DNA of 64,000 bases from Diadema setosum (lineage: Eukaryota; Echinodermata; Echinoidea; Diadematoida; Diadematidae). The position numbers and the translations under genes were made by a program. This document shows, piece after piece, positions 2,660-28,000 of the stretch. The DNA lies in NCBI RefSeq assembly GCF_964275005.1, contig NC_092698.1:26187947-26251946 (forward strand), given 5' to 3'. The notes below the pieces were generated by a model. The model saw nothing but the letters and a program-made list of their open reading frames with translations, ran no database searches and was not told the DNA's origin. How positions within the stretch are numbered: position 1 is the stretch's first letter; each line of letters opens with the position of its first letter.

Positions 2660-2716
2660 ATGAAAATGAGCGTTCACTGGCCCAAGATACTTCTGTTTGG
2701 TGACTCAATAACACAG
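2660..2716 (+). CDS. IAH1: IAH1 coding exon 1
   Basis: Nineteen codons, MKMSVHWPKILLFGDSITQ, carrying block I (GDS, catalytic Ser16). The exon ends ACACAG at a GTAAGC donor in phase 0. An in-frame TGA at 2657-2659 rules out any upstream extension within the exon. Confidence 0.93.
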
Positions 2717-5700
2717 GTAAGCTCCTGATCGCAAGAACCAGTGATTACGCACACGTTTATGTCTGTGGTCCGTACCGGGTTGAGCCTAACAATGTTTGAA
2801 CTTGAAGTTGAAGATCGGACAAGAGTGAGCTCGCGCTTGGCTTGCAGCCAGCGAAGACGTCCACAACCGGCCGACGACCGGGACCGCCCAGGCCGGGTCC
2901 GGGCGCCCCTGAGCTTCCTTACCCACTGTTGTTGTCAGGCGCTAGGCAGGCTCGGCCATTCATTATTAGGTCTTTACCCACCACTATCACCACAAACAGT
3001 AAACTTACACCGGCCCTTTCATCTACGAATAATCAAAAATTTTATCAAATCTACCAAAAAATAAAATATCTACCAATGTAACGTATAAATTTACATTGTA
3101 AATACTGATACACTCATAGATTAGATAGGGTCCTCTACGTAACATGCATAAAGTTTAGCCTGAAACTAACCCCGGCGCGGCCCGGGGCGCTGTAACCAGT
3201 ATTTTTACCTACTCGGTAAAATTACGTTACTGTTGGGGTCGCTGCTGCAGTTAGCCTGAAACATGCAAACCTTGACCACACCGTCAGGCAAATATTAATC
3301 CTATCTTATCCTGTCAAAAATTGTACGTCACACACGTTCCTTATGACCTCCGCCAAGAGAGGAGGTTATGTTTTCGCTACACCGTTGGTTTGTTTCTTAA
3401 TTTTATTTGTTTGTTAGTTTGTCCGTGGGCAAGATAACTCAAAAAGTATATATAGTTAACGGATTTGGATGAAACTTGCAGGAAAGGTTAGAATGATACA
3501 AGTAACAGATGATTAAATTTTGGTAGTGATCCGAGAATTTTTGGGGAATTTATGAAGGATTTTTGGCAGATGTTTTGGCAGGTAGGGTCAATGAACTTGG
3601 GAGTTCAGGCCGTGCGTATTTGAGGTTTGCATGCGCACACTAAAGTGCGTGCTGTAGTTTCTGCTAGGGCGAGGCGCGCCGTGCAGCTGAGGGTTTATGA
3701 CGTAACAAAGGCTTCCATATTGGGAAATCGGGCGACTTTCAGCACACAATATGGATAAGTAGGTATGGGTGGAAATCACTGATATCTCTATGGAAGAACA
3801 CGATCAGTGGTGGAAATGAGCTGCATGCTTGGCGGAGGTCTGCGCTCTCAGAGTGCTTCTCTAGTTATTGTTTGTTTTATGTCTGTGCCAATATTTGATG
3901 GAACATTTAGAGCAATGATGTTCCTTACCCTTGTATCTCTTCCTAGATCTATGGTGGTTCTATATTGGTAAATTTGTTTATGGTCCACTTCTTTTTCGTT
4001 ATCACTGTTCCCACCAGACTGATGACAGAGTCTATTCCAACCACAAGAACGCAAAGGCCTGCAATTTATTCATTTAAGGATGACTTGAACTTCATCAAGG
4101 ATGAATGAGTGTGATTAAGTCGCATTAACAATCACCTACACACCTAACTAACTCAGACACCGAATTATAATGCCCATTTGCATTGCCTCTATATATTATT
4201 AGGAGTAGACTAGCTAGCAGTAGATTAGTCCTAGTTGATATGAACAAGAAAACTGATCTTCAAGTAAGTTTGTACCGTACACACCATTTTGCATGTTTTG
4301 TTTTGTTTTGTTTTGCATTGTTTTGTGTTTTTTGTGAAACAGCCTTCCATTCAAACTCTTCTAGAACTGCAGAACTTGCACATGCACAGATATTGCTAAC
4401 TTGCAAAATAGTTTTGTTGGGCTGAAGAGAGTTTGGCTGTAAAATGCTTCTTGGCCCTACAGAATGATTCTGTACAACTTAGTATTTGAGTGTAGTATCT
4501 ACATGTAGATTGTAGTATTAGATTTTGTACATTCAAGGAACTTGTCAAATTAATGATCTCATGCTTTTGTTTCCCAACAGCTTGCAAGATTGTTTGATTT
4601 TCGTAAACCTTCATGACAACCACCATACAGACACAGTATTGTGCAGATGGTCAGAGGCTGTTTACTACTACTAGTCTCTGCTTGCTGATGAGCACCAGTT
4701 TTGTATTTTGACAGATTAAATTGAGGACGGACTGAGTTTGCAGTAACAGACATTTCCCATAGACACCTTCCTGAATATTTTCAGGACTCGTCTTCAACGA
4801 CTTAAAGATAGTACCTTAAAGCAATACATGACATTCGCTGATGAATATTGTCATCACCTACATATGTGCTTTTACAGTTTTGCAGGTCTTCTTGGCATCA
4901 TGGCATGCCACTTAAATTTATTTGTTTACCTTGCCATTTTCATTCTGTTCTTGCAGCTTTCCTTTGAACCTGGTGGATGGGGTGCCTCAATTGCGAATCA
5001 GGTCCAGAGGTAAATTGAATATCATTTTTGTAGACACAATACAAATTGATGATCCGTTGCTTTAATGATTAGGCAGCAACATGATATTCAAAGAAAAGGG
5101 GAAGTGTGCTATAGAAAATGTGAAGAATTTGAAATTGAATTTTATCTTTGGTATTGCAATCTCACAAGATATTGCTACTCATCATCAAGCAAGCTATAAC
5201 CCCCCCCCCCTTTTTTTATCTTGTTAAAAAAGAGACTAGTGACTGTCCTGTCTTTATACCAACCCATATAGTTTAATAACACTATTCACACCTAGTAGTA
5301 TGGTATTTGGGTTGATGGTGACTAGAAGTCATGGACACATCAGATAGACTTGTATGCTCATCTTACATGGGTATGGTAGTACACTTAGTACTTTTCATCA
5401 GCTGAAATTTATAAAGCCATAAACAATGTATTAAGCTTTAGAATACACATTAACACCCTTCATGTTTTTACCCAACAAATTTATCACCTTATGAGATGGC
5501 TTCTTGAAAAAGAAAACAAAATATCATGACTGATCTTGATTGCAAGAGAAAAACCACATATGGAATTTCAGTGTGGAAGACGGAACCTTTACTCCTTCAC
5601 ATTTATAAATGGATAACTTCCTCTTACCGTAATACGTTTAGCAAATGTTCAGCAAATGATGCATCATGCACTTTTGAAAAGGGAAGGGAAAACTTAAATA

Positions 5701-8700
5701 TACAGTAAGTATCTAAATGATTTGCATCAGATAGATGTCCCACAGCATATTTTTTGATGCATTTTGTCTGATTTATGTTTTCTTTTTAACAATTTGATAC
5801 TTGTCTAGATCTCCCATTAGAACTCAGTATTGGTATAAGACCAGGTGAAGTGGATTTATTCTTTGGTGTATTTAGCTTGCAAAACTTCACTACAATTGTA
5901 TTAAATTAAATGGACAAATAAGTTTTTCGATTTAAAAAGAAAACAAATATAGCACTGACCAGTAAAAATCACTGTCAGACCAGTAACTTTTTCAGGAATG
6001 GAAAAGTACAAAATGGAAAAACGGGGAACCTACTGGTCCGACCTAGATATGGGTTAGTGTGCAGCCTTGCAGTAGCTATCATAAAAGATTTTATCACTTT
6101 GAACATTAAAATGTATGAATGCATATTTTATTTGCTTTCTACTTGTCTTGTTTGTTCATAGATTTGTTTTAGTTTAGTATGCTTTGTCTTATTTGATGGA
6201 AGGGGGATAAGGGCTGATGCCAGTTCAGCATTTACAGGTTTTGTAGAATGTTATCTTTCCTGAAATATTTTGTTTGTTTAAGAAATCTGAACAGTCTGTC
6301 AGTTTGCCAATATTCTAATGACAACAAAGCATTCTTTCTTTTGTTTCAGCTGTTTGAGCAAATATTGACTCTTTATGCATTGCTTTGATCAAGTGATTTT
6401 ACAGTAAAGTGTAGTGTGTGATGCAATAATCTCAGGTCTTTAATTTTAAAGGTACTGTTTACCATTGGGAGCAGTGATTTTAAAAATATTCGGGATATCA
6501 CATTTGATGCATATTATGTTCAGGTCAGTTGTATCACAAAACATCCTACCATGTAAAAATTTTGTAATAAAGCCTAAAATATAAGGAGATATCATTTTTT
6601 TTTCTCAATAAGCCATAACTGTAGACAATTTAGTCTAGAAACATTTTTTATTACCAGTACAACTATTGTTCACATTTTGTATATTTAACAATACTTGACA
6701 TTAATTATACCGATTCAAAATTTGACATTGGTTGTTCCTATCCCTACAATGTGTAACTCACATTTTAAAATTATTTTGAAGCACTAAAGCTGGGTTTTTG
6801 TTTCATCTGCAAATGGTAAATTATGCCTTTAATGTTTGTTTTCATGATTTTCATTGTGAGGGCTTCTTGGCATGTCTGAACCTGTCTCATATCTGTGCAA
6901 ACTTCATCTCCAGAAAGTGTGACATAATTTGCCGAGGTTTTTCTGGCTACAACACCAAATGGGCTCTTGCTGCCTTGCCACATGCACTCCCAGCAGAAAT
7001 GCTAGATGGTGTTGTCATGGCAACCATTTTCTTTGGTGCAAATGATTGTTGTGACCCTGGTCTTCAGGCAGACAAACATGTACCCATCTTGGACTATGTC
7101 TCCAACATTAAGGTATCACTCCATTTGCTTCTCCGGAAATATAAATTTATGGAAATTGGTGATTAACCCCGTATAACAGTGAGCAGGTGTGTACTCAGTC
7201 TAGAGACTGGAGTGTGAAATAACTGAATTCTTAGAAGCAGTGGGTGAAATTGGGTAGTATTTAGACAAGTGGTGGCTTTGCTGTTGTTTTTTGTTCCTTC
7301 CCTCTTTCAATATATCTATCTATAGCTTCATTTTTGTTGTTGTTGTGTAATTAGTGTGCTTTTTTTTTTTTGCTTTCTTTCTTAATGGCTCCATATTAGG
7401 AGTTTTGTAAGATGCTTGTTTTGAGTATCTGATATTTTTCCCCAAATGTTGGTCCATGAGAATTTTCCCCTCCTCCATTTATGTGTACATGTATATAATT
7501 CTTATACAGATCTTGACATTTATATCTAAAGATACATAACGTTGCTACTGGGACACACTGTGACAGGGCAATAAATGAATAGCTTTGTGAATATTAAATG
7601 TTCAAAAGGTCAGCATCCTGAATCTCCAGTTCAACTCTGGTTAGGGGAGGGGGAATCCACATATTCCAGAAGATGCCAAATCCATGTACACAGATGAAGG
7701 CATATTACGGAGCAGTCACATTATATAATGTGTTTAATTTTCTGTGGCCTTGGGTTTTCATTCAAATTTTAATGTACCGGTAAATTAATTAAACTATGAA
7801 TGGGAAGACCCCTTTGTAAGTGAACAGTGCTGATTTTGGATACAGACTAATCAGTTGCTTCTGAGATATACATTGTGTGGTTATTCCTTACAACAGATGT
7901 GATTGTACATACATTGTACATTGTATTACATTTAGTTTCTGTAAGCAGTTGGTTAAAGACTGAGAGGCATCCATAAACTCCAGTTGCTGCAACATCAAAA
8001 TAGCATAAAAATATAATTCCAGGAAACTTAAGAATAACACCATATACATGTACTGTCCACTGAAGAATTCCAGGCAGTACACTAGTGTGTTGATACGAAT
8101 GTGGCAAGGTTCAAGTTTTGTTTCATTGCAAATAAACAGTTAACGTGCATAGCTCCTTTCTCGTGAGGTGAAATAAATCAAGCCATATTATGACTATGTT
8201 ATCATTTATGAGAAGTATTCATGGAAATAATTCTTAAAAAAACATTAACATGACCTACACACAATGCTACAAACGTGCTCTTATTTTATCTCTGCCAAAC
8301 AGAACCCTCAAACTGATCTTGTGTTCCAAGTTACAACCAGACTTATTTGCTAGTGATGAGTGCTCGTTAATAAGGCTTTATCAGTCCTTTATGTCAAATC
8401 CTTCGTGACAGCATTTTATTTGTGGCAAGACTGACTGGTATTAAGTGTGCCATGCAAACAAAGCGTTCCCTAGGATTATCACAACTGGCACATTCCACTG
8501 TAATTCAGTAACTTTTACAGAGCTCTGCAAGTAATCGTGTGTTTTCATCTATAATTCCATGAAATGATAAACAAATATTTTGATGATAATCTCCAACCCA
8601 ACACTCAAGGCATTGAGTTTGTCAGACAACAAAATTTTTTTATTGAATAAATTTCAGTACTTAAGGTGCGATCACACATCGCCGGTTTAGATGGCGGTTC

Positions 8701-11700
8701 ACGGCGGTTCTCAAACCGCCGTGAACCGTGTCCCAATGATGGCGGAAAGCACTTTGACTACGTTCTCAACACGTTTTGAACACGGAGCAAACGCGGATTG
8801 ACGCGGTAGTAACACGTATCGTCCCGGAAGGTGGAGGAGTCCATACCAAGCCCATGTAGTTGGATGCAATCAGAGCCCTTTCACTTGTCCTCAATGGGTT
8901 TCAACGATGAGCGTTTTGCTTTGTTAGGTAAACACAATTTTAAAGAAATTATGAAACGTTGTAACCACCTGTGTTTTACAGATTGATATAAGTGATGCAA
9001 CAACCAATTACCTTCAAGTTTCAATGTGACTTTTCTCTTTCTCTTTTAATTCTTAAAATATCCGTATTAACTGTCATTAAAAAGACATACCTTTCAAAGC
9101 AGAATCCAAAATAGTTTCCAAAGTTTCCTGTTCATTTGTAGGTTTATTTATCAAGTGATGTACAAGTACTTGCTTGTTTCAACATCTCTCTTTTTTTGTT
9201 CTTTCTTAATTAAGTTTTCACATAATTATTCGGCGTGTTGAATTTAAGATCTTGTTGCTTGTTTATCCATGTTTTCACAAAATTGCTCCTTCTTATCTTT
9301 CAGAGCTTCTTGTGAAATATGAGCCTAGGAGAGTTCCTAAATCGTAAAGGGAATCTGTATGTGATACCCTCGATCCATTACGACAAACTACTATAGATGG
9401 CAAACGTGGTTTATGCCGCCCCAGAACTGTGGAACAGCATCCCAAGTGATAGAACATGCAAATTCCATCAATAAGTCCAAAATGTTTTTAAATACTTAAC
9501 TGTTAAAATAGTAACATAGTGATTGTAGATGATGATTTATGCAACATGTTACTGTTTCTGAAATTACCTTTTCCTGTTTATCTTTTTGTTCCCCCTCTAA
9601 AGCGCATAGAGACCTTGCCAAAGGTATTATGCGCTTTATCAAAGACCGGTAATGATGATGATATAATAATGATATCTTTAACAGCAGTCAATAAAAAAGA
9701 CATATTATGCACATTATACATTATCAAAGAAGCATATTATAGTATTATGTGCATAGTTTCCTCTTTACTTACAGGTTCATGTAACATAATAATGGTGTTT
9801 TTTCAAGTTTCAACATTGCTTTTCCCTCTACTCTTTTAAGTTTCACTATATCTGTATCAACATGTCTTACAAAAATGGCATACATAATCACGAAAGCAGA
9901 ACCTAACATATTTACATTATAAGTCTTCTGTGTGTAACACGTTGCTGGCCATCTTAAAAGCTGTTAAGCTTTGATAAAATTATGAACTTACCTTTTAATG
10001 TAAATGATGTACTATTCAACATACTATTCAACAACTTTTTGAACATTAAACTTTATTTGTTACTGTATATGTGTTAAAGAAGTAAGGAAACTGTAGCATT
10101 CAATATATTTGCCCGATCTTGCATTATGGGTTCATTTTTGCGTTTATCTCCATTTTTTACTGCTCCGCCACGAAGTGTCACCGGAGCCATTATTCTCTTT
10201 TAAGTTCATTGTTTCTTTTCGCTTGAAAATTATGGCGGTGTTAACACGGTATTATCACGGATCCTGCGGTGCAAACACGGAGGATGCCGTTCTTAACACG
10301 ATGAACGGCGATGTGAACACGGTCCATTTCAAACCGCCAAGACCGCCACGAAAAATGAAACATGTTTAATTTTTCTGGCGGTTCCCCGCGGTTCCCCGCG
10401 GTTCTCGGGGTTCATGGCGGATGGGTGACGGATGACCACGGTTTGTGTACGGTGTAAACACGGTCTTTGGCGGAGCACGGCGATTTGCTGAACCGCCATG
10501 AACCGCCATCTAAACCGGCGATGTGTGATTGCACCTTTAGACATCTGCTGACAACCAAACTCATGCAACTAACCTGTTGCTGTTGGCTGTGTAATGATAT
10601 CGCCCTCTGCTGGCCGACATGCAGTACATTTTAATTCAATCGCAACTCTCGCTTCAGATGTCACATCTCCTACATTGAATGCTTAGTTGTTTTTTTTTTT
10701 CTCTCTATCTCTGTCAATCTTTCTTTCATTCTCTTTCTTTATAAGGTGAAATATTCACAAAACAAGAAGGAAAAAAAAAACAAACAAACAAGTATAGCCA
10801 AACTTGTAACTGTCATGAAAGCAATAGGGGAAAAAAATAGCCTTTTCAAAGGACTTTCTGGATATTTTGCTATCAGGATTAATTTTGTCTGGTGTTCTGG
10901 CATCATGCCATTTTGATTCCAAGACAAATCACTGTCTCATTTCCTCATCTTTCTGTTGTCTGCATGAGTGTGAGTTTGAATGGAGGATAAGACACAATAA
11001 GCTCAGATGTTTCTAATATTTTGAGCCCACACAAAAATTCTGCTGCGACAGAAATTAGAACGTCCTTGTTTCCATTCACATTATTATTGTGGGGTATGAA
11101 AAAAAAATAAATAAAAAAAATAAAGATAGTGATGACCATGATACAGTGAAATGTTCATCAGTATTATCATTCTTTATTGTCAGTATTTGCAGTGTCTTTT
11201 TGGGATGTCAACACCTGGTGTTTGGGATGGATAATTGGGATCGGTATTGTTGGTGTTGGAGTTCGATGTAAGGCAGTTGATTAGGAGATGGCACTAGTGC
11301 AAGCACTGAATTTGAAAGCAGCCATTCTTTGCAGAATGATACAGGACTTCAACCACAGAAACAGCAAAATCTGTGCCTCCCCCCCCCCCCTTCCAAAAAA
11401 AAAAAAATATGTTCAGTGGTGCAAGGCTCTATTGCAGAGGACATAAAACACACATCACACGCATGATCATGAATGTTGTCCCCTTTGAAACCTTTACAGA
11501 AAGTGTGATGTAGTGAACAGAGGGTTCTCGGGCTACAACTCCCGCTGGGCTCGCATCATTCTCCCCAGTGTCTTCCCTCCCGAGATGGTCCAAGATGCAG
11601 TTGCAGTCACACTGTTTCTGGGTGCCAATGATAGTTGTCTAGAAGAAGTCTGGCCATCGCAATACGTCGGCCTCGAAGCTTATGCAGACAACATGAAGGT

Positions 11701-14700
11701 TAGAAGTGATGCAGTGGTTATCTGTAGACAGATGCATGAAACTCAGAGAAATTTCACCGTGAAGGTTTCCTCATATAATTGCAGTTCAGACATTTTTCCT
11801 TCATACTTTTAAAGCATTTTCAAGCTGGGTTCTATTGCATGAAATATTTTAAATGTCCTGAATTCAATGTATAATCAAGAGGCATAATTTTCAACTTCGG
11901 TGGCTGAAAAGTCAAGTTACACCTGGTTTTATATGTCCAATACCAAGTGTAACTTGTATGCCACAGGGCTCGCTGTCAGTTTGAAATTTGTATATGTACT
12001 TGATTAATGATGTAATCACTTGTTCATGAAACTGTGCATGTATTATAGATGACTGGTTACGTCTTCTGTCAATTTGACCCTTGGTGTCAATTTGACCCAC
12101 GTACCAGAGAGGAGTGGATCTTGTTTCTGTCATTTTTCATAGGATGCTTTAACACAGGTAACCTATGCACCAACTGCACTGTGTAAATTTACATGTTGTC
12201 GGACTGCAACAACCCAATGCATTATGTGAAAAGTCAGTCCTGAATGCCTGCTTGTTTGGCCTTGATGTCACCTGGTTACATTCCCCACAAAAAAAAATAA
12301 TTTTAGATGAAAAAAAAAATTGTATGAATTTTGAATTTTCACAATTAGACAGCTCTAAGGAAGTTTCCTGCCGTTGCTCACTTCCTTAACAATCATCCTT
12401 GTACCTGTCCCCAATGAACTGAAAAAGAAATAGATGTGTTTAATGTGGTGTGACATTCAATTTCCCATTCTAAGGCAATGATCAAGTATTTTGAAAGCAA
12501 AGGGCTTCCTAAGGAGAGACTGATGCTGATCACACCGCCTCCTATAGATGAAGCAGCTTGGAGTGAGGCTTGTAAGACAAAAGGTAACCTACACCCACCC
12601 ATGCCTACACCCACCCATGCCTACACCCCTCCCTCCCCCCCCCCCCCCATTCCTCATGGTATTAAAACAAGTTGAGCAATGTGACACCACTTATCTTTCA
12701 GTCTTATTCAAATCTTCATACACATCTGGGGGGCATTTCATGAAGGAACTTGTCGGATAAAATATCTGACAAGTCAATTATATCCGACAAGTTTTGAGAA
12801 ATTCTTTAGTCTGATTGGCTGACTTCTCTGAACTTGTCGGATATAATTGACTTGTCGGACATCTTATCCGACAAGTTCCTTCATGAAATGCCCCCCTGGT
12901 TATTAAACAGACATAAGATGCACTGAGAAGCTCTCATTGAAATTATAGATTCCGAGGTGGCAGGAATTCCTAGGGAGGGCAGCCCTGAAGAAAGTGGTGC
13001 TATTTCTGTCACCGAGAATACACATACTTTCACTAGTAGCTTGAAACAGTGTTTCCATTCCTCCAATGAATCTTTGAAAAAAAAAAATAAGTGTGATCCT
13101 GCTCATATTGATACAGAGTGGTCTTTGTAGACGATACCAGTAGCACTTTACATGTCGTGCCTCTGGATAAAACCTTTGATCAATCGCACTATACCACTAT
13201 ACCATAAATGTATAGCACATTGTATGCCACAAACATTTTGTTTTCAACATTATCAACATCAAAACAATATCATGATTGGTCATATGACAATGTGTAGACC
13301 AATCATAGAACAGGATTTTATTTCTGAGGTAGTGTAGCTGCTAGTCTGCACATTTCCATGGGATTTCACACTTTGATTGCGAAGACCTCTGACATCAGTG
13401 CATGTCACAAGCATCAAATCACTCTGCTCTTTGGTTTTTGCATGAAAAGGGCACTACTAGTTGATTTTATACCCTCCGTATCTGAATTTGGGAAATTCTG
13501 CTATTGATTGTTTTAAACATCAACTTAAACATGAATATGTTTGTATCTTCTGGTGCCAAATTTGTTGCTTTGCAAATTACATTATATCCATTCACCTTTG
13601 CGCCATCTCCAAAAGTGCATTCCTATTTGCTATTCAATTTCTTTTACTTTCTTTTTTTTCTCATCCCAGGTACAACATTAAACAGAACACTCAAGAACTC
13701 AGGAAAATATGCCAAGGCTTGCTGCGATTTAGCCCAAGATCTGGGAGTGAAAGTGATAGACCTGTGGACCTTGATGCAGAAAGAAGAGGTAGGATGGAGA
13801 CAGATGTACTAAGTTGTGGGTTAGAGCGCCCTCCCATGTGTAAAATATGAAATGTCCAAAGAGGAACTATGGTGCTTTTAGGAGAGATATCTGGGATAAA
13901 GCAGCTGGAACGTTGAGAGTGGAGGGTGTTGCAGGTGGCTCTCGACCCTCAGGACCTACAGTTTTCTTTCATTGTATTGAAATTTTGTTTTAACCAAAGG
14001 GAATTTGCCCCATAGACTTTGATGATAATACTTTGGGAAACTGAATTTATACTTCGTTGTGGCAAAAATTTTGTTATAACCATGTTCGTTGTAATGAGAG
14101 CCCCCTGTATGTAGGATACTATCGAGAGTGTAGCTATTGTTTCATACAGCAGCTACTTTCCATGCACTGTGCAAATTGATGGTATTCGAGCACAATGTTT
14201 GATTGAAAAGAGAGAGAGTAGTATGAAAGTATCACTTGGTGAATGATTAAGATGGAGATAGTGTGTAACAGCAGACAAAAAGGTGGATGTGTTGATGTAG
14301 GGAGGATAGTTTGAGGGGTTTCACAACTCGGCATGATGAATACAACCAGCTGAGAGAGGCCATGTTATGTAGCACACAGACCACCCAGCAAGACTAACAG
14401 CAAAGACAAACACACACATTAAAGCCATGTGTCGATCCCTTCTTACACGTTCCTGGGTTACAAATACAAGGCACTGTATAAACCATGCGTCAAGAAATCA
14501 ATGATGATTAATTCACAGAGGATCCATTTTTATTCATCTTGAAATGTTCTAGACGGCATCTGTCATTGACATTCATTCTTCCCAAAATCAACTTCTCGCA
14601 CTTGACACTATTTGCTATGACAGTATTATCCTCTCACATGCCCAGTTGATAACCGGATGACTACTCTGATGATGAAAGTCACTTGACAGTAAATAAATTT

Positions 14701-14913
14701 GGGGGTAATGACAACATGTGTTCTTCTGTCTTCCAGAACTGGGGCCCGAGGTTCCTCTGCGATGGTCTCCACTTGACAGCGGAAGGAGCAGGGTTCCTCT
14801 ACAAGCACCTCTCGGGTTTTGTAGACGACTGCACTGCATCCCTCCCTCAGCAGTGGCCAGACTGGAGCAGCATAGACTACGCCAATCCAGAGAAGAGCTT
14901 CCAGCAGGATTGA
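2660..14913 (+). CDS. IAH1: Isoamyl acetate-hydrolysing esterase 1 homologue (SGNH hydrolase), complete, spliced
   Basis: Joining 2660-2716, 4957-5009, 11500-11698 (or 6914-7112), 12475-12583, 13670-13788 and 14737-14913 gives 237 aa, close to the roughly 248 aa of human IAH1. All junctions are GT/AG and keep frame. SGNH blocks appear in order: GDS with nucleophile Ser16 (block I), RGFSGYN with Gly45/Gly48 (block II), GAND with Asn80 (block III), and DGLH with Asp188 and His191 (block V). The family hydrolyses small esters (yeast Iah1 cleaves isoamyl acetate); there is no signal peptide or membrane segment, so it is probably cytosolic. The start is fixed by an in-frame TGA directly before ATG 2660; a second in-frame ATG is at 2666. 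The third coding exon is present in two versions, detailed separately. Confidence 0.93.
3345..3840. mobile_element. Non-autonomous element with 13-bp inverted ends GACCTCCGCCAAG
   Basis: The left end GACCTCCGCCAAG and right end CTTGGCGGAGGTC are perfect 13-bp inverted repeats around about 496 bp. The left interior holds the 'GTTTGTTAGTTTGTC ... GATGAAACTT.CAGG' run that I recall from repeats in many marine invertebrate genomes. No coding capacity is seen. A second, degenerate copy lies near 39251-39640. Class not determined. Confidence 0.65.
4716..4804 (-). repeat. 93-bp palindromic repeat, degenerate copy 1 of 5
   Basis: A degenerate copy, in the same orientation as the copy at 44854-44946: ends resemble TTAAATTGAGGACGG and CGTCTTCAACGACTTAAA, with the shared internal 'CATTTCCCATAGACACC'. 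It lies in IAH1 intron 1. Confidence 0.6.
4957..5009 (+). CDS. IAH1: IAH1 coding exon 2
   Basis: Fifty-three bases coding LSFEPGGWGASIANQVQ plus the AG of an Arg codon (phase 2). GGWGASIA matches the GGWGASLA that follows the catalytic serine segment in the family. The donor is GTAAAT. Confidence 0.92.
5010..6913 (+). other. IAH1 intron 2
   Basis: A 1.9-kb intron with no other coding signal. A C/T homopolymer pair lies at about 5202-5218. Its 3' end contains the 387-bp element at 6446-6832, so the last 81 bases (6833-6913) supply the branch-point and pyrimidine region for exon 3a. Confidence 0.75.
6446..6832. mobile_element. 387-bp TTAAAGG...CCTTTAA MITE-like element, copy 1
   Basis: The ends are inverted: TTAAAGGTACTGTTTACCA at the left and TGGTAAATTATGCCTTTAA at the right. 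A second copy (17440-17796) aligns along the whole length in the same orientation, including the shared 'TCACAAAACATCCTACCAT' and 'TTTTGTTTCATCTGCAAAT'. There is no coding capacity. It is probably a non-autonomous DNA transposon. Confidence 0.7.
6914..7112 (+). CDS. IAH1: IAH1 alternative coding exon 3a
   Basis: A 199-base exon flanked by CTCCAG and a GTATCA donor. The first A completes Arg37, then 66 residues run from [16 protein letters not shown] to LDYVSNIK. It carries SGNH block II (RGFSGYN) and block III (GAND), but reads CRGFSG and GANDC where exon 3b and human read NRGFSG and GANDS. By hand count 29 of 66 residues match exon 3b. The frame is fully open and both motif blocks are intact, so this looks like a functional alternative rather than a dead copy. 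Whether it is spliced in vivo cannot be seen here. Confidence 0.85.
8664..10536. mobile_element. Non-autonomous DNA transposon, Harbinger-like, 1.87 kb
   Basis: Inverted ends of about 47 bp match closely (AGGTGCGATCACACATCGCC at the left; AGGTGCAATCACACATCGCC reading in from the right) and continue through GGTTTAGATGGCGGTTCA. TTA flanks both ends (8661-8663 and 10537-10539), the three-base TWA target duplication typical of PIF/Harbinger. Subterminal DNA is full of GGCGGTT and AACACGG motifs. There is no transposase frame. A LINE 3' fragment is nested at 9303-9672. It sits between the two alternative IAH1 exons. Confidence 0.75.
9303..9672 (+). mobile_element. LINE 3'-end fossil (CR1/L2-like ORF2 tail and 3' UTR)
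   Basis: Translation gives ELLVKYEPRRVPKS, then in another frame GNLYVIPSIHYDKLL, a stop, and MANVVYAAPELWNSIPSD, a further stop and VQNVFKYL. That is the well-known end of non-LTR retrotransposon ORF2 ('LLV.Y.P.R.LRS', 'AAP.LWNSLP', 'FK..LK'). The following 'GCGCATAGAGACCTT...GCGCTTTAT' and ATGATGATATAATAATGAT tail suit a LINE 3' end. At least one frameshift and two stops break it. It is a 5'-truncated insertion inside the Harbinger-like element. Confidence 0.75.
11500..11698 (+). CDS. IAH1: IAH1 alternative coding exon 3b
   Basis: Exactly 199 bases, flanked by TTACAG and a GTTAGA donor, in the same phase as exon 3a. It codes [20 protein letters not shown] to LEAYADNMK. This version is closer to human IAH1 ([34 protein letters not shown]), so it is probably the ancestral or default form. 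The donor has T at +3, which is weak. Confidence 0.92.
11699..12474 (+). other. IAH1 intron between exon 3b and exon 4
   Basis: 776 bases with no coding signal of their own. A short tandem 'GTCAATTTGACCC' pair lies near 12067-12101. The acceptor is CCCATTCTAAG at 12464-12474. Confidence 0.7.
12475..12583 (+). CDS. IAH1: IAH1 coding exon 4
   Basis: 109 bases coding AMIKYFESKGLPKERLMLIT through TKTK-like end ...SEACKTK, then one base of Gly140. LMLITPPPIDEAAW corresponds to VILITPTPLCETAW in human IAH1. The donor is GTAACC (phase 1). Confidence 0.92.
12584..13669 (+). other. IAH1 intron between exons 4 and 5
   Basis: 1.09 kb. It holds a near-perfect hairpin element (12728-12896), tandem CCCACCCATGCCTACA repeats and a C run (about 12593-12649). 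A strong T/C tract precedes the CATCCCAG acceptor. Confidence 0.8.
12728..12896. mobile_element. 169-bp foldback element with GGGGGGCATTTCATGAAGG ends
   Basis: The arms are inverted and nearly perfect over about 65 bp (GGGGGGCATTTCATGAAGGA... pairs with ...TCCTTCATGAAATGCCCCCC), enclosing about 37 bp. It would form a long hairpin in the IAH1 transcript. Shorter relatives are at about 25406-25538 and 54615-54747. Confidence 0.8.
13670..13788 (+). CDS. IAH1: IAH1 coding exon 5
   Basis: 119 bases completing Gly140, then TTLNRTLKNSGKYAKACCDL and on to VKVIDLWTLMQKEE. LNR...YA.AC...A...G..V.DLWTLMQ is the conserved helix and strand before the catalytic Asp/His block. The donor is GTAGGA (phase 0). 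Confidence 0.93.
13789..14736 (+). other. IAH1 intron between exons 5 and 6
   Basis: 948 bases. At about 13960-14110 is a dispersed repeat with 'TTTTGTTATAACCATGTTCGTT', related to copies at 27252-27440 and, inverted, 17138-17200. No coding signal is seen. The acceptor is GTCTTCCAG. Confidence 0.7.
13960..14110 (+). repeat. Dispersed 'TATAACCATGTTCGTT' repeat, copy 1
   Basis: It shares 'CTTCGTTGT..CA', 'GTTTTAACC/GTTATAACC' and 'CATGTTCGTT' in the same order with 27252-27440. A shorter inverted relative lies at 17138-17200. Class unknown; ends not defined. Confidence 0.45.
14737..14913 (+). CDS. IAH1: IAH1 last coding exon
   Basis: 58 codons and a TGA: NWGPRFLCDGLHLTAEGAGF ... NPEKSFQQD. 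It contains the block V catalytic pair Asp188 and His191 in CDGLHL (human SDGLHL). The exon runs straight into the 3' UTR. Confidence 0.94.
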   Translation, partial: NWGPRFLCDGLHLTAEGAGFLYKHLSGFVDDCTASLPQQWPDWSSIDYANPEKSFQQD

Positions 14914-17439: not shown

Positions 17440-17796
17440 TTAAAGGTCCTGTTTACCTTTGGGATCCGTGATTTGAAAAATGTTCATTTGATGCATATGT
17501 GTAGGTCAGTTGTATCACAAAACATCCTACCATATAAAATTTTCACAATAAAGCCTAAAATATAAGGAGATATCAGTGTTTTTCTCAATAAACCGTAACT
17601 GTAGACGGTTTAGTCTGGAAACATTTTGATTATAACTATTGTTCACATTTTGTGTATTTAACAACACTTAACATCGATTATACGGATACAAATTTTTACA
17701 GTGGTTGTTTCTATCCCTAACTCACATTTTAGAACTATTTTACAACACTAATGCTGGGTTTTTGTTTCATCTGCAAATGGTAAATTATGCCTTTAA
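17440..17796. mobile_element. TTAAAGG...CCTTTAA MITE-like element, copy 2
   Basis: A 357-bp full-length relative of 6446-6832 in the same orientation, with the same ends and small internal indels. Confidence 0.7.
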
Positions 17797-24872: not shown

Positions 24873-25055
24873 ATGGCGGGGAAGAGTTTGGACGACATCG
24901 TGAACGATGTGATGAAGCAGGACACTTCGGCCAAGTTCCAGGCATCCGAGGACTTGCAGAATTACCTGCAGGACGTAGACAAACCATTACAGTGTGAGAA
25001 CATTGACCGGCTTATCGATGCTTTGGCAGGATGGGTCAACAGCAGCAATTTCAAG
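24873..25055 (+). CDS. CLASP: CLASP coding exon 1
   Basis: 61 codons, MAGKSLDDIVNDVMKQDTSA to GWVNSSNFK, ending AAG at a GTGAGT donor (phase 0). The ATG is in a good context, GTAAGATGGCGG, which also matches the YY1 core AAGATGGCGG, so the start codon overlaps a possible promoter element. Confidence 0.93.
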
Positions 25056-28000
25056 GTGAGTAGCAAATTTCCTGCCTTCAGTTCTGAAATCAGCTACTCA
25101 GAGGAAGTAAGCCTTCATTGTGTGGGGTCATAATGTTAAAAGGATTCTGCGATAAGCAATCCTTGTGATAACAGCCTCCTACAATGTAGCATGCTACTCA
25201 TTGCATGATTTATCTCCTAAGGAAACCACTGTTCTACAATTTTGTTGGACAGTTGCTATCTGGAGGGTATTTAGTAATTTTCCCAAGAAAATATGAGGCT
25301 ATGTTGGACTTATACGGCATAATTTTTCTTTTCTCTCTTGTTTTTGTTTTCATTGATCATGTGTCAGCGTAACTTAACCCATTGCTTTCAGAGACCTGGG
25401 GCCCAGGGGGGCATTTTTCATCAAGCGTTTTTCAATAACAAATTTTCTCGCAGCCAATCAGATGCAAGGATTTCAGTAGCTTAAAACAGTTGTCAGTGAT
25501 GTCAGTGTCTGACAAGTTTCATGAAACACTGCCTTGATGGGTCCGGAACAAATTCTACAGCAGGATCAAAACAGCCTAGATATGTCCCAGGTTAATTGTG
25601 TTGCTGGAAGTATAGATCTATACAACTGAATAGTGGTGTATTACAGAGAAAATGACATCACTTTCAAAATACATTTATAGAGATACAAAAGGATCCTGCC
25701 AATGCAACTTCTGGCTGTAAATGTACAAATTTATAGAAAAGATGTGTAACATATTTTTAATGTGAGATTTACATTGTAAAACATGTGATATACAGAATGC
25801 TTGATGTCAGTGTGTAATGATGAAAATTGATGGTTAAGTCTAATGCATATTTGTCAATAGAAAAAAATGTGCATCCGTATCATGAGAGTTATACAGATGT
25901 TAGTTTGCACGGTCTTCTAGCCATTGTAGTTATTGTACATTTCTGCTGTAATACTTTGCATGGGAATTTTTGTTGTCTAGATGCACGTTTGGAGCAAAGT
26001 CATGATTAATCTATCTTAACCAAAACTTCCTGTTCTCAAATGATGAACTGTTCACCACATTGTGAGCTGTGCCCAATGAAATAAAAAATTATAGACGAAT
26101 CTGTTCTGGAAACTTGAAGATGTCATTCAAGTAGAGAAGTCAGTGTAATGATATTTTCATGTTTATCAGTTAGATATTCTGTCACTCTTGAACTTGCTGT
26201 ACCATGTACAAATGCTGCCATTTTTACCTTTTCCAGATCTTAGACAAATGTGCAAAGTAGAGTCTACTCTATAGGGAAAAGAGCCAGTTTCATGATACAT
26301 TGTCTCTTTTCTGGTACTTATCTGGGCCACAGTCTCGCCCATTTCCTTTGTTTCAAACCTCATGAGATTACACAATGCACGCTGAAGTTGCAAGATTTAC
26401 ATTGCATGCTGTATGTACAGCCATCACACATGTACTATTTTGTCCAAAGACAGTTTTAATTGCGATTGTGAAATCATATCTTCAGAGCCTTGGATTTTGT
26501 GGCAGTAGATTATTTCTGCTTGCTACATTTTTTTTCACTTCTACACAGTATTTCTAATGTTTGAGAAAAAAAAAATCACAGGAATACTTTTATGGAACAG
26601 GTGAAATACTAAAGAAAGTGGCTGTTTTCTTTTCAATCATTCTTTTCAGATTTATTCATTCGCTTTCACACTGCTGTTTTGATTGGGATAGTATGGTTTT
26701 GCTGTCTAGTATAAAACACTGGCAGCGCGTAGCTACACAATGTAAAATGTATGTGTTTACATAGATCTCCAATTTCACGGTAATAACTTCAGTAGTGTGT
26801 TCAAGTTCAGTAGAATATGAGATTCTTGAAATGTTACTGAACTAGAGATGTACAGAAAACACAGTTTCAATGGGGAATGCTGCCTGCTTGCTCTCAGTGG
26901 CAGTGGATATAGAGTGAGATTGTGTAATAGGCTAATGAGTCAGACACGCAAGAAATTTCCCCAATCTAGCACAACACTTTAAAGGGAATCCAGCATTGTT
27001 TGCCAAGAAATTAAAGATGTAGAGCTTAGTTCCTACAATGTGCATGTACATCCACTGTTTTTTAAATGTCATACAAGTTCTATGCAAAGTGCACTGTGCC
27101 CATCCTCAAAGGATCTATGAGAGGCATCTTTACCATTAACCCGTTGAAGACTAGTCCCGAGTATACTTGGGCAGGTGGCTTTGGAAAATGCATGTTAATA
27201 CAACTGTAGCAAATCAGTCTGTCCTCAACGGTATGCGTAATTGTTGTCATTGAATACAGGTGACTCCTGTCATAATGAAGTTCCTGGGACCAGCAGTGTT
27301 CTTGCGTTATATTCAAATTTCATTATGTAGCAGAACAGTAAAGTACCAAAGAATTATTTTAGGACCTGAATTTTTTCTTCGTTGTAACATTGAGTTAAGT
27401 TTTAACCATGTTCGTTATTTAGTAATGGGAATACATTGTATGTATTCTAGAGCTCTGCAGTGTACAGCTGTACATAATGTATGCCCGTCTGCTGGTACAC
27501 CTTTTGTTTCTCCCATTCACATGACATTGTTAACTTTCCGAAATGGGGGTGGAAAAAAACAAGAAACAAATCTGATGCGCATGGCTTACCTTTATAGTAC
27601 TCAAACCCCTGTCAAACTTCATTTTATGTGATGCTATTGTTTACCAGTGTTTACAGTTTGTGTTGACTTGTTGCAGTGTTTTTTTTTTCATCTTTTTTTT
27701 TTCTTTTTTTTTTTGTCTTCATGCATTGATCAAACAAATACAGCAAAGAATGTAGACAGTCTGAGTCAGTTGTTACAGTCAGGAATTGCGTTGAGGTGTG
27801 CTCTCCCACGTTACTGTTTTCGATGATTCATAATTGTCGTCCCATGTTTTGTTGCTAGAGGTGCATCACCTACACTATTTTGGGAAGCATACAAACATGT
27901 GTGCAAAAGTGCATGACACCAAAGTGTAGTTCAGCATAGATCAGTACATTGGCTTAAATAAACTACAGTAATCAAGGAACTCTTTATAGTAAGTGTTGAA

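Follow-up and report, generated by a model that had tools for sequence, protein, structure and literature searches.

Can a single esterase gene offer two versions of part of its active site by exchanging one exon? This question is raised by a 64,000-nucleotide (nt) stretch of the genome of the sea urchin Diadema setosum (contig NC_092698.1, positions 26,187,947 to 26,251,946 of the forward strand; hereafter the window), which carries a complete IAH1-type esterase gene of the SGNH family at 2660–14913 on the + strand. The gene has six coding steps, and its third coding exon is present twice, as exons 3a and 3b (Table 1). We consider it likely that exon 3 of single-copy IAH1 was duplicated in tandem long ago and that the two copies have since been maintained as mutually exclusive exons. 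The interest of the case lies in the probable age of this pair and in its host, an esterase gene that appears to be single copy. IAH1 is widespread; in the mouse, knockout of IAH1 reportedly leaves liver lipid accumulation unaffected (PMC7224509).

Two copies of exon 3 and their surroundings

Exons 3a and 3b are equal in length (199 nt), are both flanked by AG and GT, and both enter in phase 2 and leave in phase 0; coordinates, lengths, flanks and phases agree exactly with the initial annotation of this DNA. All introns of the gene are of the GT-AG type. A transcript that runs from exon 2 through either 3a or 3b to exon 4 keeps an open frame and encodes 237 amino acids (aa) either way. Joining 3a to 3b reads ...AAG AAA GTG TGA, where the stop is the third codon of 3b and lies 418 nt upstream of the last junction; skipping both exons reads AGG CAA TGA, which ends the protein at 38 aa, 221 nt upstream of that junction. 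The proposal made in that annotation, that transcripts with both copies or neither meet an early stop and only single-copy transcripts stay open, is thus borne out at canonical splice sites.

The two exons encode homologous peptides (tblastn E value 4e-18 in the window), each with RGFSGYN and GAND, in keeping with the earlier view that they cover the same SGNH segment. The catalytic blocks of SGNH enzymes are the GDS serine, the block II glycine, the GxND asparagine and the DxxH motif. GDSIT, RGFSGYN, GAND and DGLH are found in both isoforms, and we take RGFSGYN and GAND to carry the oxyanion-hole residues, the Gly of block II and the Asn of block III. Exon 1 supplies the Ser block and the last exon the Asp/His block, so that either isoform should be a complete enzyme. 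Both are recognized above cut-off by two Pfam GDSL models, PF13472 (71.6 bits for the 3a isoform, 77.7 for the 3b isoform) and PF00657 (67.6 and 65.3 bits), which order the isoforms oppositely with scores that lie close together.

Exons 3a and 3b are identical at 111/199 nt and 29/66 aa, so that 37/66 residues differ. In the whole genome (912.7 Mb, 102 contigs) the similarity of their peptides is likewise beyond chance, with E values of 1.5e-12 and 9.3e-13. Candidate exons were collected by a scan modelled on WebScipio rules (PMC3228551: AG...GT, 139–259 nt, the right phase, an open frame, and the published relative BLOSUM62 limit of 15%). Scored against 3b, the window yielded 629 candidates (+ strand, 328; - strand, 301), of which 19 exceeded the limit: 16 overlap 3b and three overlap 3a. 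No candidate on either strand outside 3a and 3b passed, the best of the other 610 scoring -0.025; the pair itself scores 0.456 relative to 3b and 0.445 relative to 3a.

Genome searches with the 3b and 3a peptides up to an E value of 10 matched 3b and 3a themselves and nothing else. For exons 4–6 the genome showed only this locus, save for a match at chance level (E 3.0, one internal stop); in all these searches every first-look candidate was scored. Inside the window, to which the comparison of exons 1 and 2 was confined, exon 3 is the one IAH1 coding exon with a further significant match. By these exon-by-exon searches of window and genome, IAH1 appears to be single copy, with exon 3 alone doubled. 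Short patterns from isoform B (the 3b isoform), whose reach is close relatives, gave nine matches in prokaryote genome contigs, none of them a relative, and none in viral contigs.

Probable age of the pair, constraint and possible consequences of an exchange

Silent sites between 3a and 3b are near saturation (pS 0.73; dS 2.76, an imprecise value drawn from 44 silent sites and close to the limit), and the duplication of exon 3 is for this reason probably old. Protein change has been held back (pN 0.36, dN 0.49; Fisher p 2.6e-5 on rounded counts), giving a pairwise dN/dS of about 0.18. Codon positions 1, 2 and 3 are identical at 36, 45 and 29 of the 66 codons, a signal that taken alone is milder (permutation p 0.014). 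Neutral evolution was simulated by substitution to the observed identity, with the base composition of the window, no insertions or deletions, and a single branch. Runs that started from 3b (n=5000) retained a mean of 17.6 identical residues and a maximum of 27, and those from 3a (n=5000) a mean of 17.2 and a maximum of 26; the observed 29/66 lies above all 10,000. The frame stayed open in 222/5000 and 246/5000 runs, one count for each starting copy. Together these comparisons point to retention of both copies as coding exons.

Yeast Iah1 offers an outside reference. The Saccharomyces cerevisiae protein, an isoamyl acetate-hydrolyzing esterase (PDB 3MIL), is the best solved relative of both isoforms, at 97.4 bits and E 1.1e-26 for isoform A (with 3a) and 86.9 bits and E 1.7e-23 for isoform B; the next solved match, 1YZF, follows at E 5.2e-4 and 0.025, respectively. 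The two proteins belong to the same SGNH esterase family; the difference is that 3MIL matches as one chain. Exon 3a matches yeast at 33/62 residues and 3b at 31/62. When yeast, 3a and 3b were aligned together (67 columns, nine with gaps or different placement dropped, 58 compared), 23 columns were common to all three, eight to yeast and 3a only, six to yeast and 3b only, and six to 3a and 3b only, while 15 differed in all three. On these counts neither copy looks simply decayed or a relic.

The 37 changed residues are distributed as follows: three lie before RGFSGYN, 17 between RGFSGYN and GAND, and 17 after GAND. The stretch right after GAND reads CCDPGLQADKHVP in 3a and SCLEEVWPSQYVG in 3b, and the exchange would tune substrate choice by altering this loop. 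On a wider and more tentative proposal, to which we give somewhat less than even credence, IAH1 would be an ancient two-state enzyme, in which the oxyanion-hole segment and the next loop would be exchanged by regulated splicing, giving tissues or stages two esterases with different substrate ranges. The pair could then be shared across sea urchins or echinoderms, since the near-saturated silent sites make it old enough, and 3a would retain residues that are otherwise found in yeast Iah1. If two versions of an active-site segment have been kept for so long, two activities would matter to the animal. Exons 3a and 3b would form a natural pair for mapping what the active-site segment controls.

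The proposed exon choice and its rival explanations

In the mechanism we favor, exon 2 would splice to 3a or to 3b, and either would then splice to exon 4. The products would be two 237-aa esterases with their Ser and Asp/His ends in common and 37/66 residues different in the oxyanion-hole segment. Both exons would be expressed under a regulated splicing choice. Stops far upstream of the last junction are the classic arrangement for nonsense-mediated decay, to which mis-spliced double or null transcripts would go. The choice would combine the frame shift and decay of wrong products with regulatory factors invisible in sequence. Of the initial reading of the pair as mutually exclusive, the sequence-level features all stand and the evolutionary tests indicate two retained coding exons; use in transcripts and its regulation are what we infer. 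IAH1 would also offer a clean test of how reading frame can back up an exon choice.

Ketohexokinase (exons 3a/3c), PKM (exons 9/10) and CYP4F3 all have mutually exclusive exons in a catalytic domain. The likeness is that one gene provides two catalytic variants differing in one exon-coded segment. Their folds are unrelated to that of IAH1. Because such swaps are known in other enzymes, the surprise is modest: the kind of gene design is known, and IAH1 as its carrier would be new in the literature searched. 

Criteria for mutually exclusive exon clusters are set out by Pillmann et al. 2011 (PMC3228551). As described there and in a human survey (PMC5740500), such clusters consist of neighboring homologous exons of equal length, with the same splice pattern and frame, that encode the same part of a folded domain, as do 3a and 3b. 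What sets the IAH1 pair apart is that it was recognized from sequence alone, and that no report of such exons was found for its gene and lineage. The pair also has a length not divisible by three, as have 377 (60%) of the human clusters in the survey. Joining reads occur in 83 (22%) of these 377, and other regulation is therefore usual too (PMC5740500). IAH1 is absent from the main text of the survey. Human IAH1 does appear in cancer splicing surveys, where the event type, when stated, is alternate promoter (AP) (PMC9712015, PMC7387693, PMC8524056); the gene name and the existence of alternative transcripts are shared with our case, but AP events are not mutually exclusive exons. The initial annotation knew of no description of mutually exclusive exons in this esterase, and searches of open-access papers for IAH1 together with mutually exclusive exons, echinoderms or sea urchins turned up none either; papers on mutually exclusive exons in sea urchins, judged by their titles and the opening of their abstracts, do not name IAH1. 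As this negative covers open-access papers only, with subscription papers and database annotations outside its scope, it is quite possible that an annotated isoform already exists in a public sea urchin gene set.

Several observations weigh against the favored account. Nothing but the frame shift is seen to enforce the choice, and it does so incompletely. When 11 GT dinucleotides at 6960–7166 were paired with 18 AG dinucleotides at 11400–11659 (198 pairs, the canonical one included), 54 pairs kept double inclusion open; the earlier statement that phase logic enforces a choice holds for canonical splice sites and fails as an absolute rule. The normal 3a donor takes part in two of the 54, and in one of these it joins an AG that lies only 4 nt inside 3b, for a product of 302 aa. 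Scored with approximate matrices, the 3a donor (AAG|GTATCA) has the lowest value of six, -0.81 bits, followed by the 3b donor at 2.09; of the six acceptors, that of 3a is second from the bottom at 0.55 (3b 4.29; exon 4 -1.2). Because its donor and acceptor score low, 3a may represent a minor form. A pairwise dN/dS is an average over the two lineages, so that constraint on 3a itself would depend on the small yeast comparison. Nor is any steric or U2/U12 incompatibility visible at the IAH1 splice sites, and the RNA structure considered below adds no firm regulatory element.

Both exons start with AAAG (6914–6917 and 11500–11503), which places a second AG 4 nt inside each acceptor.

Three means of exclusion were considered, and two of them are rejected. 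Incompatibility of U2 and U12 sites is rejected, as all IAH1 sites are GT-AG and none resembles the U12 motif. Competing RNA structures were sought around the alternative splice sites. Among 25 of the 42 pairs, one of 25 nt and 80% complementarity spans the 3b donor (arms 10944–10968 and 11679–11703), where the longest perfect complement is 12 nt, a length reached in 5/200 shuffles; at the other three alternative splice sites the complement lengths are unremarkable, being reached in 67, 197 and 150 of 200 shuffles. The 12-nt complement is too weak to be taken as a regulatory structure and serves as a lead only. Steric exclusion is rejected because the 3a–3b intron, at 4387 nt, is far above the donor-to-branch-point limit of <50 bp (PMC5740500).

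The rival that survives best holds that both exons are real and that their choice is not a regulated switch: 3b would be the default and 3a minor or restricted (or the reverse), with frame-based clean-up besides. We regard this as unlikely, though not negligible. The gap between the two exons in donor and acceptor scores speaks for it, as does a mobile element copy that ends 81 nt upstream of the 3a acceptor. Weak sites are, however, usual in regulated exons too, and the pair is under constraint, with 3a no worse a match to yeast than 3b; from this constraint and this match, it seems that the 3a product has long been of importance.

Far less probable is that polyadenylation within the intron makes 3a an alternative last exon, whose truncated product would lack the block V Asp/His. 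The 3a frame does continue to a stop at 7164–7166, A(A/T)TAAA motifs occur from 7570 on, and the 3a donor is weak. Against this, 3a can be aligned to 3b and to yeast through its last codon and keeps its exit phase and GT, and AT-rich introns often contain such hexamers (the 3a–3b intron has 12). We give equally little weight to the view that one copy, 3a (or else 3b), is a nonfunctional remnant of the exon duplication. Frame, length, phases and splice dinucleotides are intact despite silent sites near saturation, the amino-acid identity exceeds every neutral run, and 3a is no further from yeast than 3b. It is barely credible that the two exons come from separate genes in tandem or from a whole-gene duplicate that has broken up: tandem gene duplicates are common in general, but a whole-gene duplication or further duplicated exons, looked for in the window (all exons) and in the genome (exons 3–6), were not found, the other IAH1 exons having no second significant match in the window and exons 4–6 matching this locus alone in the genome, bar the chance-level match noted above.

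Gene coordinates, mobile elements and other features

The coding exons of IAH1 and the intron between 3a and 3b are listed in Table 1.

Table 1. Coding exons of IAH1 and the intron between the two versions of exon 3, in window coordinates (TIR, terminal inverted repeat).
Feature	Position	Strand	Description
Coding exon 1	2660..2716	+	57 nt, MKMSVHWPKILLFGDSITQ; block I Ser; donor CAG|GTAAGC
Coding exon 2	4957..5009	+	53 nt, LSFEPGGWGASIANQVQ and split Arg codon; leaves in phase 2; acceptor TTGCAG, donor GAG|GTAAAT
Exon 3a	6914..7112	+	199 nt; residues 38–103, KCDIICRGFSGYN...GANDCCDPGLQADKHVPILDYVSNIK; acceptor CTCCAG, donor AAG|GTATCA (weakest donor in IAH1)
3a–3b intron	7113..11499	+	4387 nt; contains an apparently young 1.87-kb TIR element
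Exon 3b	11500..11698	+	199 nt; residues 38–103, KCDVVNRGFSGYN...GANDSCLEEVWPSQYVGLEAYADNMK; acceptor TTACAG, donor AAG|GTTAGA
Coding exon 4	12475..12583	+	109 nt, AMIKYFESKGLPKERLMLITPPPIDEAAWSEACKTK; genome search: this locus only
Coding exon 5	13670..13788	+	119 nt; genome search: this locus and one chance-level match elsewhere (E 3.0, one internal stop)
Last coding exon	14737..14913	+	177 nt including stop; DGLH, block V Asp/His; genome search: this locus

The element in the 3a–3b intron (8664–10536, 1873 bp) has terminal inverted repeats at 8660–8710 and 10490–10540 that are 94% complementary, is flanked by TTA on both sides, and contains no stop-to-stop frame longer than 110 aa (limit 100 aa). 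Its start (query 8655–8900) recurs at 98–100% identity in at least 39 other genomic places among the best 40 of 360 candidates, and because the copies are this similar the family looks very young and recently mobile. Upstream of 3a, an element of ~387 bp that resembles a miniature inverted-repeat transposable element occupies 6446–6832, with ends TTAAAGG...CCTTTAA; it is the copy that stops 81 nt before the 3a acceptor. Among the best 40 of 6224 candidates, its copies are 83–86% identical over nearly the full length, with one short piece at 87%, and a further copy lies at about 17496–17796. The intron after exon 4 holds a 73-nt inverted repeat (12728–12896; 93% complementary, 23-nt loop), probably a foldback element. 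Rfam models gave no match in the window at gathering scores.

Downstream, 24873–25088 (+) is the apparent start of a gene for CLASP (CLIP-associating protein); the best solved match of this 72-aa piece is 4G3A (E 5.6e-7), and it has no Pfam match. The mitochondrial contig (15,708 bp, the first 10,000 read) carries a COX1 frame with stops under genetic code table 2 and none under tables 5 and 9; as both of the latter leave it open, an open frame is not by itself specific to the echinoderm code. With AAA read as Asn (table 9), COX1 contains TDRNINTTFFDP, whose Asn we take to be a conserved position. By eye, the order on one strand is ND1, ND2, a gap, COX1, ND4L, COX2 and COX3; the gap is presumably the place of the 16S rRNA, and the order is sea-urchin-like.

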